44,318 nt of DNA from a virus: positions 1-44,318 of the IMG/VR virus record IMGVR_UViG_3300005264_000017; one strand, 5' to 3'. Made by a program: the position numbers and the translations under genes. The notes under the pieces are model-generated. The model saw nothing but the letters and a program-made list of their open reading frames with translations, was not told the DNA's origin and searched no databases. Shown piece after piece: positions 22,695-37,214 of the stretch (positions within the stretch are counted from its first letter, which is position 1; every line of letters begins with the position of its first letter).

Positions 22695-25352
22695 ATGAGC
22701 GCATTAGGAGTTACATCAGTAGGAGGAAGCGGAGGAGGTGTTATAACACCCGCAGTTGATTATTATGCAGATTTGCCGGCCCCATCGGTAGGAGTTGGAA
22801 AGATCTTTTTTGTTAAGTTTGATTCAAACCCTAATTGGCACATGGGAACGATTGGGAGTTTCTATAAATATCCAAGAGGTCAATACATATCAAATGGAAC
22901 GGAATGGAGTTTATACGGACGGCAGGTAGAAGTTTCTGAGGACTCTGCAACTTTAATAAATATTGAAAACTATGCGGAATGGTTTGGAACTACTGAAAAC
23001 GTAAATACTGGAGACTTAAAGGTTTTCGATGAAGTTTTGTATCAGAATTTGACAGGAACTTACACGGCGACTATTCCTTCATCAGATTCCACAAACTGGA
23101 AAGCATTTTCTAGCGGGGGCGGGGGAGTTGACTACGAAAACACAATCACAGTAGCAAAGAGCGGAGGAGATTATGACACTATTCAGGCGGCGATTGATGC
23201 AAGTACAAGCGGTGACGCTATTATAGTTTACCCTGGTACATATACTGAGAACATAACTACAAAAGCAGGGGCAACTACGAATATTGAAGGAATCGGGAAT
23301 ATGGGAAGCGTTATAATTGAAGCGAACACAGGAAGCGTAGTGACCGTTCCAAGTGCAATGATGACAATGGCTTTTTTCAAAAACTTAAAGCTAAAATCAA
23401 CTGTTACCGGGGCGAATACTTCAAAACTGTTGTACGGAGATGGAATGATGGTATCGTTCTTAGATGTTGTTTTTGATTACAATTTGAGTAATGGGTATAC
23501 TGAGGAAATATTAGACTTAGAAGTGGGATCTTACATTTTCATGAACTGTAAGTTTGATTTTGATGGAACTGGAACTAGTGGAGGAAGTACAAATTTTATA
23601 TCTGCTGCTGGATCTGCGAAGTTTAACCTTCTACAAGGGTTTGGCGATATGAAAACAGCTTCAGTGTCACCATCAGATCACATACATTTCATTGGATATG
23701 ATTCTTCAGCATTAAGTATAGTGAGAGATTTCGACAGTATTACTACTGGATCAAGTGCTTCTTTCGGAGGTCATTTGGATTTTATTCACATGACAGGATC
23801 GGGAGAAATAGAAGTGATGGGAAATAAAATTTCAATAACTACACCGAGCGGTATAACTGGATCATATGGTCAAATTTATCACTTAGCAGGTACGAGCGGA
23901 GGACATGTACATTCAACATCAAACCGAATAAATGTAACAGGATTTGATAAAAATTACATGGGAGATATTGGAGCCACAGAGGTGCTACATTCGCATTTTG
24001 ATGACATTATAGCAGTTGACAGCGTAATAGGGGATGGTACTTATTCATATGTGAATTCGCCAAGCGGGGGCGATATGCAAATGAGCGGTGATATTATTTC
24101 AAAGGTTGTAAATATTACATCGGATTACGATTCTTCAGAGGACTGGGAGTGGGGGATTTTGAACTCAGATGCAACAACTGAGATAACGGCCACTTTCAAT
24201 CTAACTGAAATAAACGGATTGCCAGATGGAGCGAAAAGAGTTTTTACTAACTCCAGTTCCGCAAGCAACTTTATTATAGATACAAATGGAGTGACGGTAG
24301 GAGCATCGACGGCCGATAGAGCGATTTATCCAGGCGGGTATATTAAGGTTGAAAAAATAGGAGGAGAATTTATTATAACAAGTTCACATAATACGAGTTT
24401 TAATATTAACCTAGCGGATGTGCCGAATAAGACTTTTCATCTAGACTTTTCTGACGCCTCGAGTGTAACCACGTCCGGAGACGACATTACAGCTATGACA
24501 GAGAGTATTAATTCATGGAATGGAGACGGTACAGCTTTGGCCGGGCGTATTAAATACGGACTTACAACGCAAAACGGATTAAATACAGGATACTGGGATG
24601 ACCCAAATTCAACCCTAAACTTTGGAGATAGGGATTTGCATAGCAACCTAGCGGGGCGGGGGTTAACTATCATATCGGTAGTAAAACCTCGTTATGGTGG
24701 TGACGCAATTATCAGTAAATATGCTGATAATGTGCCAAATGCGGAATGGCGATTTTTAACGAATTCTGCGGCTATTTATGATGAATTAGACAGAAGTGGG
24801 GCAGAGGCGACATTAAACTTTTCTTCGAATTACGAGGAATGGCAGATAATCGGTATGACATGGGAGCCAGGGGGTAGATTAAAGGTATACAAGAATGGAT
24901 ACTTGATGGGGAATTCTTCATACACTACAACAGATATACCAGCAGGAACAGCGGATTTAATGGTAGGGATTAGTGATATAAGTGGGATGGATTTCTATGG
25001 AGAGATGGGGGAAATTCTAGCAATTTCAGACACTCCTACCGAGGATATGCGGAAGGCGATGGTATCTAAACTCGGAGCAAAGTGGGGAATAGATACAGCA
25101 GTATTTAGTTCTAGCGACAGTTCGCCTTTCGGGAGAGATGAAGAGACAGATACAATCAAACCATTAATTGACAATGACAATCTAGATATTGGAACGGGGG
25201 TTTATGGCGGAGTATTGAAAGACGGAATAGAATTAGAAAGTGACGCTGCACCAACAACTGATGCGGGGGTTGCTAATAAGAAATACGTCGATGATAATAG
25301 TGGAGGAGGAGTATCAGAAGAATTAGCCATAGCGTACGCAGTAGCTTTATAA
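22695..25352 (+). CDS. Tail fibre/adhesin with beta-helix and LamG-like domain
   Basis: 885 aa. N-terminal 1-140: Gly-rich attachment region. About 148-330: VAKSGGDYDTIQAAIDAST then YPGTYTENITTKAGATTNIEGIG, the pectate-lyase-type right-handed beta-helix start. About 590-790: LamG/concanavalin-like domain (TIISVVKPRYGG, EEWQIIGMTWEPGGRLKVYKNGYLMG, FYGEMGEILAISDTP). C-terminus: TDAGVANKKYVDDN, typical of phage fibres. It probably binds host surface glycans. All glycines use GGN codons, unlike the recoded adhesins downstream. Confidence 0.75.
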   Translation: MSALGVTSVGGSGGGVITPAVDYYADLPAPSVGVGKIFFVKFDSNPNWHMGTIGSFYKYPRGQYISNGTEWSLYGRQVEVSEDSATLINIENYAEWFGTTENVNTGDLKVFDEVLYQNLTGTYTATIPSSDSTNWKAFSSGGGGVDYENTITVAKSGGDYDTIQAAIDASTSGDAIIVYPGTYTENITTKAGATTNIEGIGNMGSVIIEANTGSVVTVPSAMMTMAFFKNLKLKSTVTGANTSKLLYGDGMMVSFLDVVFDYNLSNGYTEEILDLEVGSYIFMNCKFDFDGTGTSGGSTNFISAAGSAKFNLLQGFGDMKTASVSPSDHIHFIGYDSSALSIVRDFDSITTGSSASFGGHLDFIHMTGSGEIEVMGNKISITTPSGITGSYGQIYHLAGTSGGHVHSTSNRINVTGFDKNYMGDIGATEVLHSHFDDIIAVDSVIGDGTYSYVNSPSGGDMQMSGDIISKVVNITSDYDSSEDWEWGILNSDATTEITATFNLTEINGLPDGAKRVFTNSSSASNFIIDTNGVTVGASTADRAIYPGGYIKVEKIGGEFIITSSHNTSFNINLADVPNKTFHLDFSDASSVTTSGDDITAMTESINSWNGDGTALAGRIKYGLTTQNGLNTGYWDDPNSTLNFGDRDLHSNLAGRGLTIISVVKPRYGGDAIISKYADNVPNAEWRFLTNSAAIYDELDRSGAEATLNFSSNYEEWQIIGMTWEPGGRLKVYKNGYLMGNSSYTTTDIPAGTADLMVGISDISGMDFYGEMGEILAISDTPTEDMRKAMVSKLGAKWGIDTAVFSSSDSSPFGRDEETDTIKPLIDNDNLDIGTGVYGGVLKDGIELESDAAPTTDAGVANKKYVDDNSGGGVSEELAIAYAVAL

Positions 25353-27112: not shown

Positions 27113-27186
27113 GTGGTATTCGTTTAATGGTAGGACGGCCGACTTCATATCGGAAGGCGCGGGTTCGATTCCCGCATACCACTCCA
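27113..27186 (+). tRNA. tRNA-Gly with anticodon UCA (reads UGA), CCA encoded
   Basis: All arms are present. Acceptor GTGGTAT (27113-27119) pairs perfectly with ATACCAC (27176-27182). D arm GTTT-AATGGTA-GGAC. Anticodon stem GCCGA/TCGGA (first pair G-A mismatched) with loop CTTCATA (27143-27149), so the anticodon is TCA (27145-27147). Variable region 4 nt. T arm GCGGG-TTCGATT-CCCGC. Discriminator T, then CCA. U73, the AATGGTA D-loop, the short variable loop and G1-C72 are bacterial tRNA-Gly traits; Sec or Trp identity is not supported. Position 37 is U rather than the usual purine. Confidence 0.93.
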
Positions 27187-27188
27187 TC

Positions 27189-27217
27189 TTTACTTTCTAG
27201 AGATTAGAAGGTATAAT
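27189..27217 (+). promoter_or_regulatory. Promoter of the recoded adhesin genes
   Basis: TTTACT, 17-bp spacer, perfect TATAAT, starting 3 bases after the tRNA CCA. Predicted start about 27224, ATG at 27240. Confidence 0.7.
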
Positions 27218-27239
27218 TTTTGTGATTAACTATAGTCTC

Positions 27240-28502
27240 ATGACTTACGAATCACTCTGAAGCCAAGGGAGGCCTATCTTCCGCGAAACCTTTCAATCTG
27301 AGCAACAAACTCGGAGGAATGGCTGAGTCCCGACGGATGTATCTTTTTCGGATGGGAAAGGGGTGTCAAACGGAAGCACAAGCGAAACATCATACTGAGA
27401 TAAATTTAATTTATCTTGAACGTCGTTTTCAATTAAAATTAAATTTAATACAAATAGTGTTGACAGACAAGGGTTTGTTGAGAAAAGATACGGCGCTAAC
27501 TTCTGATATAGAGTAAATATTAGGTTTTGATTAATACGATGGGAAATCTACAATTGATCATCGGCGGTAATTACGGCCCATTTCACAGTGTGAAAGGATC
27601 ACGAGGTAATTGCAACATGTGATTCGTCTGGCGCAAATTCAATATTAAAATTATATGTAGATGGTGAATACATAGGATCAGATACTTTGTCAGGAACAGG
27701 TTTTGCTAGCGCAGAGAATTTTAACATGTTTAGAGACAATAGGGCCTACTCTCTGGACGGATCAATGGATTTAGTAGAAATATACGACTACGCATGGACA
27801 GCCGAACAAGTATCAAACGATTACAACAATCAGACTTATAAAGATGTAACAGATGGGCTTATTTTAAATAGCTATGGAAGTCATGGCACATTTGCGAGTG
27901 TATCATGAGATTACCCTATAGATATTACGAACACGAAAGCATGAAACAAAATAGTATGAGAGATGACTATGGACAAATGATGGCTAGATTATGGAGACAC
28001 CGATTCAATCAACTTTAATTGGGACGATCCTTTTTCTATATCGTTTTTTGCCAAAACATTAATGACGAGGTGTTATTTCGTAACAAAAGCACTCCATAAT
28101 TGATCTTATCAATGAATATGGTTATATATAATCGGTTCGGATGTTTATGTTTATATAAAATCAACTAGCGGGCAATCCGTTCAGATTGGGCAAATTAATA
28201 TAGATATAAATGATAACGAGTGGCACAATGTAACATTTGTGTATGATTGAAGTGGCGAAAGCGGGGCATGACACATGGATATATATGTTGATGGAGAAAA
28301 ACGATCATCAGCATATAGATCTGGGACTGTTAATAGTTGAGAATTTGGAAATACATATCCATTAAATGTAGGTAATACAAATAATTTACATGTATGATAT
28401 GAATATGAAGGAAAAATAAATCAAGTTCGGTTTTATAATAAAAAATTGACAGATAGTGAGTGCAGAAGGATTTACGATTCTAACAAACAATACTATGTCT
28501 AA
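27240..28502 (+). CDS. LamG-type adhesin 1, UGA-recoded (UGA = Gly)
   Basis: With TGA read as Gly (genetic code 25) this is one 420-residue ORF ending in TAA. It contains 18 TGA codons against about 27 GGN glycines. Two LamG/concanavalin-like domains: about residues 57-200 (NLSGTSFSIKIKFNTN, LYVDGEYIGSDTLSG, DYAWTAEQVSNDYNN) and about 250-415 (FNWDDPFSISFFAKT, NDNEWHNVTFVYDGSGESG, MDIYVDGE, GKINQVRFYNKKLTD). TGA falls where the fold has Gly, as in VYDGSGESGAGH. Tryptophan is encoded by TGG. It overlaps the next recoded gene by 8 bases. Translation needs the tRNA next door or a code-25 host. Confidence 0.93.
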
Positions 28503-30111
28503 AGTCTTTGAAACCAATTTCAGTAAAGGGTCGATTCTTACAAATGATTGAAACACTATGCTAAACAGTGGGGCCGTTTTAAAGCAGACTAGTAAAGGGT
28601 TAGCAATGCAATTTGATGGGGTGAATGATTATATTGATACAGGCTGCAATGTAATTGGTACAAAATGAGTAACAATAATGTTTATTTTAAAACCAAAAGG
28701 GTATTGAGGGGGTGGATATTGAAGAATGTTCGCTAATGGCAAACTAGAGATATATACATCGGCACCACATACGGCTATAAGGATGTATAGTGATATGCAC
28801 ACTTTGGCTACATCTTGAACTGACTCCATATTATTAAATAAATTTTATTTTGTAGCTATAACAAGAGAGTCTGATGGTACAACAAATTTCTATATTGGAG
28901 ATGATGAAAACGCTCTAGCGTCTTCATGAAGTGTAGACCAAAGCTCTTGAACACCCACAGAGGGAACACATAATTTATTAATTTGAAAAAATCAAACATT
29001 AGGCAGGTGGTTTGATTGATTTATTTGAGATATCATAGTGGAAGAAAGCATATTATCATTAACAGAAATGAATCATTTCTACGAACAATTCCTACAAAGA
29101 AAACCCCTCGGAACACAATCTAAAAATTTCACACACCACAAACCTGACCACTTAGAAGAATATGGGCTTGTAGCAGCTTATAATATGAAACCTAGTGCGG
29201 GAGGTGTTTTGGCAGATATTTCAGGAAATGGAAATAACGGTACTATAAACTGACCACTAGCAACACTTGATGGCCTGGCTTTTGATGGGGTTGATGATTA
29301 TGTTATGCTCGAGGAAAGTTTGTCTGGTTTAGATAAAATGACAATGTCATCACTTGTAGACAAGAGATGATGAAGATCGTATGCATTAATTAGTGGGCAA
29401 TCATACGGTACATGATTCGAAATATATGAAGGTGTGCTTTTTTTTCTGGTAAACACGAACGAATGACTTGCCTATTGTACTTGTGCTAACACAGAAACAT
29501 GAGTAACTTCATTTGTAGCGGTTTTTGACGGAAGTGCCACCGGAGATGAAAATAGACTAAAAATCTATATAAATGGTGAACAGCGTACCGTTACATTCCC
29601 GGCGACAGGGGTTGGTACACAATTAGTCACCTTCTCTTGACAGATGTATTTGGGAAAGCGACCATGGAATGAAGATTATTCAAAAGAACTTTTATATAAT
29701 TTTTCTATCCATAACACGGCGAAAACAGACCAACAAATAAAAGACTACCACAACAAATACGCATCACAAGTAGCACTCTTTGAAGATTTTAGATACGCAA
29801 AGGCAGATGGAACTACTCAGCTACCAGCAGGATGGACTTCATCGACAGGAAGTCATAAAACCAATGAAGATTCTACTGGAAAATACATTGAATGCGTAAC
29901 GAGCGGCGTTGTTCAATACAAAAGCGTTGATCTGAGTGGTTACGAAGGAAATGGATACATATTCAAGATTGATGGTGATTTTAGCTCTGACGTGGACAAA
30001 ACAGTAGACAGTTCAACCAATGTATCATTCGCAAACAACACAGTATCAGTAACAATGACATCAGGACAAAAACTAAGAAATATCGGTATTCAAAAAGGAG
30101 TCCTTGCATAG
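28495..30111 (+). CDS. LamG-type adhesin 2, UGA-recoded (UGA = Gly)
   Basis: 538 residues with TGA read as Gly, ending in TAG. It has 17 TGA codons, all between 28549 and 29640. LamG domains at about residues 35-184 (LAMQFDGVNDYIDTG, LLIGKNQTLGRWFDGFIG with three UGA glycines) and about 223-420 (DISGNGNNGTING, LAFDGVDDYVML, KIYINGEQRTV). A beta-rich C-terminal domain (about 425-538) has about a dozen GGN glycines and no TGA, suggesting a native phage end joined to an imported adhesin. Likely a receptor-binding protein. Confidence 0.92.
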
Positions 30112-36141: not shown

Positions 36142-36792
36142 ATGTCAAAAACTGACGGAAATGATGGACAAGCATCTAGCGGAACTCAGAATAATTCTGA
36201 CGGAAACGATGGCTCTTCATCACAAACTCAAGAAGGACAACTCACTCAGGCGCAAGTTGATGCAAAAATTGAAGAAGCAAAGGCAAGTGCCGTTGAAGCT
36301 TATAAAGCAAACAACGGACGAACGGAAAAACAAATCCGAGAAGAAGCAATTGCGGCATATGAAGCGTCAAACAAAGCTAAAGACTTGGAAAAACAAGGGA
36401 AATTTGAAGAACTGTACAATTCTTCTATTTCTGAAAAGTCTGATCTTGAAACAAAACTTGCAGAAGCAATCTCGAAAAATGAACCGCTCGAAGAGTTTAA
36501 AAAGAAACTATCCGATACGACTGCTACAGAGAATGAATCTATATTGAGTGAATTAGAGAAGAATATTCCTGAAGAAAAAAAGGAACAATTCGAAAAAATG
36601 AAATCTACATTACATGAAGATCCTTTTTCACGAAAGGAACAACTTGTAACGTGGAAATTTCTTTTAGGTGACGTGACAAAGGGTAAGAACTCTCCTAAAA
36701 CTCCGAAAGGAGAATCAGATGAAAAAGCATTTGACGAAGCTCTCAAAGACATTAAAGAGACAAAGGAGAATTCATGGGAAAAAAAATTATAA
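36142..36792 (+). CDS. Capsid scaffold protein
   Basis: 216 aa from ATG 36142. Low-complexity polar N-terminus (SSGTQNNSDGNDGSSSQTQEG), then a long charged coiled coil (about 35-150) with KIEEAKASAVEAYKANNG, and a basic/polar C-terminal region: the standard phage scaffold layout. Placed right before decoration and major capsid genes. It would shape the procapsid and then leave. Confidence 0.7.
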   Translation: MSKTDGNDGQASSGTQNNSDGNDGSSSQTQEGQLTQAQVDAKIEEAKASAVEAYKANNGRTEKQIREEAIAAYEASNKAKDLEKQGKFEELYNSSISEKSDLETKLAEAISKNEPLEEFKKKLSDTTATENESILSELEKNIPEEKKEQFEKMKSTLHEDPFSRKEQLVTWKFLLGDVTKGKNSPKTPKGESDEKAFDEALKDIKETKENSWEKKL

Positions 36793-36812
36793 CTTTTTAA
36801 AAAAACACTAAA

Positions 36813-37214
36813 ATGGCGGATACACCACAATATTCACACACAGCGAATATCTCACCAGAAGATATTTTTGCTCGTCCGATTGGACTCGAAGACAACAAAC
36901 CACTTTCTGGTACATTGGCGGGGAATGCTTCACAAACAACTCCACTCGTTCGTGGAACTGTAATGGGAGTAGTTACTGCTACTGGAGAATTTGCTCCATA
37001 TGTAGCAGGGGCATCAGATGGTACAGAAACAGCGGTAGGGATTCTTTCAAAGACTTTCGACGCATCAGAACTTTACAATGTAAACAGTTCAAACGTAAAA
37101 GCAGCAGCAGAAAATCCAGCTACAATTTATCGAGCAGGTACATTCTTTGAGGCGGCTTGTCCAGGAATTGATGCAGCAGGTAAGGTTGATCTTACTGATA
37201 TTACATTCGAATAA
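36813..37214 (+). CDS. Head decoration protein
   Basis: 133 aa, beta-rich, Gly/Thr-rich (GTLAGNASQTTPLVRGTVMGVVT, AVGILSKTFDASE). Matches gpD-like decoration proteins in size, composition and place between scaffold and major capsid. It would stabilise the expanded head. Confidence 0.7.
   Translation: MADTPQYSHTANISPEDIFARPIGLEDNKPLSGTLAGNASQTTPLVRGTVMGVVTATGEFAPYVAGASDGTETAVGILSKTFDASELYNVNSSNVKAAAENPATIYRAGTFFEAACPGIDAAGKVDLTDITFE

Follow-up and report, generated by a model that had tools for sequence, protein, structure and literature searches.

The tailed phage RSA-ATP1 of the Absconditicoccaceae, reported in 2026, is the first that its authors know of among patescibacterial phages to carry a tRNA-Gly-sup(TCA) (PMC13059738). 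For Gracilibacteria and Absconditabacteria, both code-25 and code-11-compatible phages were described in 2023 (PMC10746230), and the summary given there includes phages that recode their late genes by means of suppressor tRNAs, with TAG read as glutamine or TGA as tryptophan. We analyzed a whole virus record, IMGVR_UViG_3300005264_000017 (44,318 bases; hereafter the window), in which two adjacent genes for putative adhesins use UGA as a sense codon beside a tRNA with anticodon UCA. Like RSA-ATP1, this phage appears to have its own suppressor tRNA-Gly(TCA) and to read in-frame UGA as glycine; unlike RSA-ATP1, in which internal UGA occurs in 39 of 65 ORFs including portal and terminase (PMC13059738), it does so in two adhesin genes only. 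It shares with the code-11-compatible phages a majority of genes without in-frame TGA; the TGA stops of those phages are often soon backed up, a tendency that is not significant in the counts given below. Those phages have no in-frame TGA at all (PMC10746230), whereas here there is a putative UGA=Gly block with its own tRNA. The late-gene recoders, as far as they are summarized in PMC10746230, resemble it in their suppressor tRNA, their recoded genes of structural type and their standard code elsewhere; the residues named in that summary are glutamine and tryptophan, whereas here the residue is probably glycine, the other late genes are untouched, and a sharp border appears to fall within one gene. 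Phage tRNA-Gly(UCA) and code-11-compatible phages of code-25 bacteria are thus already published. What appears to be new here is the adhesin-confined mosaic in one genome: in the papers that we searched, no standard-code phage is described in which UGA=Gly is limited to adhesin genes beside the tRNA.

A tRNA(UCA) and two genes in which UGA is sense

The cassette consists of a tRNA(UCA) at 27113-27186, followed by two overlapping TGA-rich frames that extend to 30111; no convincing repeats were found in its flanks. The features discussed below are the following.

22695..25352, + strand: native standard-code tail/fiber-like protein of 885 aa; weak LamG match at 24672-25016, no TGA
27113..27186, + strand: putative tRNA-Gly-type opal suppressor tRNA, anticodon UCA, U73, encoded CCA (ARAGORN, Rfam)
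27189..27217, + strand: promoter-like TTTACT-17-TATAAT between the tRNA and gene 1, a consensus match only
27240..28502, + strand: putative adhesin gene 1 (420 aa), with two LamG domains and 18 in-frame TGA; the GTG at 27222 is a possible alternative start
27399..27815, + strand: LamG domain 1, 5 TGA inside (blind read-through scan)
27990..28460, + strand: LamG domain 2, 6 TGA inside (blind read-through scan)
28495..30111, + strand: putative adhesin gene 2, 538 aa, 17 in-frame TGA, two LamG domains; overlaps gene 1 at its 5' end
28615..29061, + strand: LamG domain 3 (LamG profile searches)
29287..29742, + strand: LamG domain 4, 6 TGA inside (blind read-through scan)
29644..30111, + strand: 3' part of gene 2 that lacks TGA (13 GGN versus 0 TGA) and is an open frame in the standard code as well

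An earlier reading of this DNA, made from the sequence only, had pointed to two overlapping frames of 420 and 538 codons that are open if TGA is sense. Translation with code 25 agrees: the frames at 27222/27240-28502 and 28456/28495-30111, which overlap by 8 bases, hold 18 and 17 TGA codons, respectively, and no internal TAA or TAG. All 35 in-frame stops over the 958 codons are TGA, and there are no frameshifts. The longest frames free of TAA and TAG measure 1689 and 1299 nt, whereas 500 base shuffles of the region give 286 nt on average and never more than 627 nt. For gene 1, the GTG at 27222 is preceded by a Shine-Dalgarno-like AGAAGG better than that of the ATG at 27240.

We scanned all six frames by unbiased read-through with Pfam Laminin_G_3, and obtained three matches above the curated cut-off in the cassette. 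These cross 5, 6, and 6 TGA (17 in total) and no other stop; a fourth match, weak and TGA-free, lies inside the 885-aa protein. The comparison with LamG profiles that the sequence-only reading had proposed as a check bore it out, with Laminin_G_3 scores of 97.2 and 66.8 bits for the TGA=Gly translations (cut-off 27.6; E-values 1e-27 and 3e-18). A search of solved structures returned weak LamG matches alone for gene 1 and no credible match for gene 2, and AlphaFold run without an alignment gave an unusable model, mostly strands, with a pLDDT of 35.6. Both frames are coding sequences in which UGA is sense, and by sequence both products are LamG-type proteins. Their LamG domains, together with the position of the genes beside those for tail and virion proteins, suggest a putative role in receptor binding.

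The residue at UGA

ARAGORN detects only one tRNA in the record, at 27113-27186, with anticodon tca and the label SeC, and the Rfam tRNA model covers the same positions at full length (57.1 bits; gathering score, 29). U73, the 4-nt variable loop, and the encoded CCA are all present. The complete tRNA previously described from the sequence is recovered by both programs. It had also been called glycine-type. Annotated phage tRNAs that resemble it in sequence are almost all tRNA-Gly, which agrees with this assignment; those of Streptomyces phages are 85% identical to it over positions 10-63, and the one annotated similar tRNA that we retrieved has the anticodon tcc. By its sequence, then, it belongs to the glycine type, and its charging with glycine is putative. 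U73 and a 4-nt loop are by themselves no proof of glycine: U73 is also found in tRNA-Cys, and for this reason an independent look at the residue through protein profiles matters. The tRNA has a pyrimidine (U37) where a purine is expected, a 27-43 mismatch, and U2-A71, and because of these oddities its efficient function is not assured.

A LamG profile was derived from 44 domains encoded in the standard code by bacterial genomes, and with it each of the 20 residues was scored at the TGA positions of both proteins. Glycine ranked first with 144.1 bits, ahead of serine (138.5), asparagine (137.1), glutamine (136.3), and arginine (131.7); cysteine (117.6) and tryptophan (94.7), the last of the 20, lay 26.5 and 49.4 bits below glycine. 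As a control, most known codons regained their true residue in this profile; Trp (9 codons) and AAC (Asn) did not. With Pfam Laminin_G_3, for which ten residues were tried and the two genes summed, the order was the same: glycine 164.0, serine 155.6, asparagine 153.5, arginine 148.4, cysteine 130.2, and tryptophan 113.0. Glycine is thus the best-scoring residue in both tests, with a modest margin over serine and asparagine of about 5-10 bits, in line with the glycine reading proposed before.

Both sets of scores reject tryptophan and cysteine at UGA. Cysteine would have the advantage that neither U73 nor the shortness of the variable loop tells tRNA-Gly from tRNA-Cys, and that a single change turns the GCA anticodon of tRNA-Cys into UCA; moreover, the window tRNA is an imperfect glycine tRNA. 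Its annotated relatives, however, are tRNA-Gly, and a cysteine reading would give the two tail adhesins 35 cysteines between them, in contrast to the 0-1.3% Cys of this phage's other structural proteins. Serine comes only 5.6-8.4 bits behind glycine; tRNA-Ser, however, is characterized by a long variable arm.

The code switch is local

The earlier description of the phage as standard-code outside the cassette holds: the remaining genes contain 0 TGA in 10,467 codons, with 0 in-frame TGA versus 661 GGN in the long genes elsewhere in the 44.3-kb record, and TGA terminates 11 of 50 genes. A backup TAA or TAG follows within 9 codons in seven of these 11 genes, not significantly nearer than behind other stops (p=0.14), and the other four have no near backup. 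The genes for capsid, portal, tape measure, endolysin, and the 885-aa fiber all have zero in-frame TGA. Comparing the cassette genes (35 TGA versus 74 GGN) with the other late genes (0 versus 396), the difference is highly significant (Fisher p=4e-26). Since TGA is absent in-frame elsewhere and serves as a stop in 11 genes, the recoding is confined to the tRNA and the two adhesin genes. The phage has neither the UGA in most genes and lack of UGA stops that characterize a whole-genome code-25 phage, nor the UGA across structural and lysis genes that characterizes late-gene recoding.

Even within the cassette, the use of TGA is uneven. The counts of 18 and 17 stand as first given, but the final 155 codons of gene 2 hold 13 GGN and 0 TGA (Fisher p=0.013), so that the code border appears to lie inside this gene, its 3' part being likely a standard-code C-terminal module. 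An ORF listing with table 11 gives a single ORF within the 3 kb, of 155 aa at 29644-30111. In the TGA-rich parts, GGA makes up 18 of 60 GGN codons, versus 345 of 691 elsewhere, as if TGA had taken the place of GGA. GC content (0.361 in the cassette versus 0.362 in the rest) and the remaining synonymous codon use are alike.

Relatives and other phages with tRNA(UCA)

Searches of viral contigs found no relatives of gene 1, gene 2, the terminase, or the 885-aa protein, and tblastn against phages with genes 1 and 2, the C terminus, and the capsid protein as queries gave no match. No second copy of the cassette turned up in these searches of viral contigs and phages, which leaves the term "portable", applied to it in the sequence-only reading, without a second instance.

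We also searched for the tRNA. An initial pattern scan of viral contigs gave no match, a scan for tRNA(UCA) with a 4-nt variable loop matched 13 viral contigs, and a broader scan requiring U73 and CCA gave 43 matches, two of which (L063, in G042, and L065, in G043) ARAGORN confirmed as tRNAs. Three phages have a tRNA(UCA) with U73 and CCA (G041, G042, and G043), and two of the three use UGA=Gly widely. In G042 (IMGVR_UViG_3300036985_004989; 21,485 bp, AT-rich) it extends across the late genes, and the early genes are TGA-free. A collagen-like protein of this phage has 24 TGA, mostly at the glycine phase of its GXY repeats, and by its sequence makes a clear viral case of UGA=Gly. In G041 (IMGVR_UViG_3300020045_005878; 46,364 bp), where the tRNA(UCA) sits between tRNA-Tyr and tRNA-Trp, most genes use UGA=Gly, and a Gly-rich protein has 62 TGA in 294 codons. 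Both share with the window phage the tRNA(UCA) with U73 and CCA and the reading as glycine, but their recoding covers the late genes or most of the genome, and neither has LamG.

G043 (IMGVR_UViG_3300035661_000037; 82,711 bp) has its tRNA(UCA), with U73 and CCA, at about 36759-36832, beside a DNA methylase. It looks standard-code, without an evident UGA-recoded gene or block and with TGA mostly near the ends of the ORFs examined, and is therefore not a second cassette. Six further viral contigs (L010, L012, L013, L017, L018, and L020) have a tRNA(UCA) with a discriminator that is mostly G; these are probably Trp-type opal suppressors of code-4 phages. A Ramlibacter tRNA, found in a scan of genome contigs with a pattern that does not match the window tRNA, was discarded, as ARAGORN reads a two-base anticodon in it.

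Aligned to its G042 counterpart, the window endolysin scores 93 bits across 166 aa; the best phage record gives 74 bits. It also aligns with G047 (IMGVR_UViG_3300035698_008918; 41,920 bp), and the type is shared with G042 as well. Among 34 ORFs of at least 100 aa in G047, 26 end in TAA, 5 in TAG, and 3 in TGA, so that TGA is largely avoided even as a stop. The window helicase and methylase are nearest to those of standard-code phages, including Flavobacterium phages. The endolysin gene, of M15-type peptidase, lies at 858-1394 of the window; it has a TTG start and overlaps the end of the preceding small ORF.

Origin and expression of the cassette

With moderate confidence, we favor the import of a UGA=Gly module and its joining to a standard-code C terminus, with full adhesins made only without effective release factor 2, probably in a code-25 patescibacterial host. 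The donor would have been a phage or bacterium with UGA=Gly (code 25), from which a standard-code tailed phage acquired the tRNA-Gly(UCA) together with both LamG adhesin genes; the imported gene 2 would then have been fused to a C-terminal piece written in the standard code. Late in expression the phage tRNA would read UGA as glycine, as would the host tRNA in a code-25 cell, and full-length adhesins would result only if release factor 2 is missing or loses the competition. The likeliest setting would be a phage newly arrived in, or a part-time user of, a code-25 patescibacterial host, to which the adhesins may attach. In a code-25 cell, release factor 2 is expected to be absent, so that its competition would be gone. 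There the phage tRNA would act as a supplement, as in RSA-ATP1 (PMC13059738). We rate such a host as likely as, or likelier than, the tRNA acting alone in a standard-code host.

The TGA-free 3' part of gene 2 and the reduced share of GGA fit both import and mosaicism at the level of domains, and the affinity of the endolysin to G042 would count for the same explanation. Since no close relative of the genes or the cassette was found, the argument for import is one from composition; the code-25 source proposed in the sequence-only reading thus fits these two features and is, like the glycine charging, the host, and the receptor-binding role, something that we infer. Against it, GC and the other codon use of the cassette are those of the rest of the phage, the lead of glycine over serine and asparagine is modest, and the odd tRNA positions leave efficient function in doubt. 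The 11 TGA-ended genes, four of them without a near backup, suit a standard-code host better, and the likeness of helicase and methylase to standard-code phages would argue the same way. If the explanation is correct, an alternative code can travel between viruses as a small block, made of a codon-reading tRNA and the genes that depend on it, and a code border can fall within a single gene. Exchange between standard-code and code-25 viruses would become visible, with a hint of phages whose host range crosses the code barrier, and the receptor-binding genes of such phages would escape standard annotation.

A purely standard-code host is a distinctly less likely alternative. There, the tRNA would beat release factor 2 late in infection, so that the adhesins are made late only, and the TGAs would have arisen inside the phage. 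This would account for the tRNA adjoining the recoded genes, for the 11 of 50 genes in which TGA is a normal stop, and for replication genes resembling those of standard-code phages; the recoded genes are, moreover, of structural type, as in the late-gene recoding summarized in PMC10746230. It leaves unexplained why the other late genes (capsid, portal, tape measure, 885-aa fiber) lack TGA, and why the end of gene 2 does so too. By arithmetic, half yield over 17-18 serial UGAs needs a read-through of ~96% per site against release factor 2, and neither a release factor nor a glycyl-tRNA synthetase was found among the window proteins scanned, a subset of the ORFs. Somewhat less probable again is a phage that infects both standard-code and code-25 cells, its UGA-rich adhesins being finished in code-25 cells alone; which binding proteins the progeny carry would then depend on the code that the infected cell uses.

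A chimera, in which assembly fused code-25 phage sequence with the contig of a standard-code phage, is improbable. The abrupt change of code and the lack of a second copy in our searches are what such a chimera would produce, but it requires joins at two places, one of which would have to keep the reading frame inside a gene, and the frame of gene 2 continues unbroken into the TGA-free part. The match in GC and synonymous codon use argues against a differently composed foreign assembly piece, not against import from a similar genome. A residue other than glycine, such as cysteine, serine, or tryptophan, appears slightly more improbable still, given the profile scores and the tRNA relatives described above. 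Finally, a decayed region, in which the frames are pseudogenes and the TGAs true stops, would suit the high TGA density and the unusual tRNA positions, but can be practically dismissed, as 35 of 35 stops are TGA, the LamG domains are intact, and the frames are unshifted throughout.
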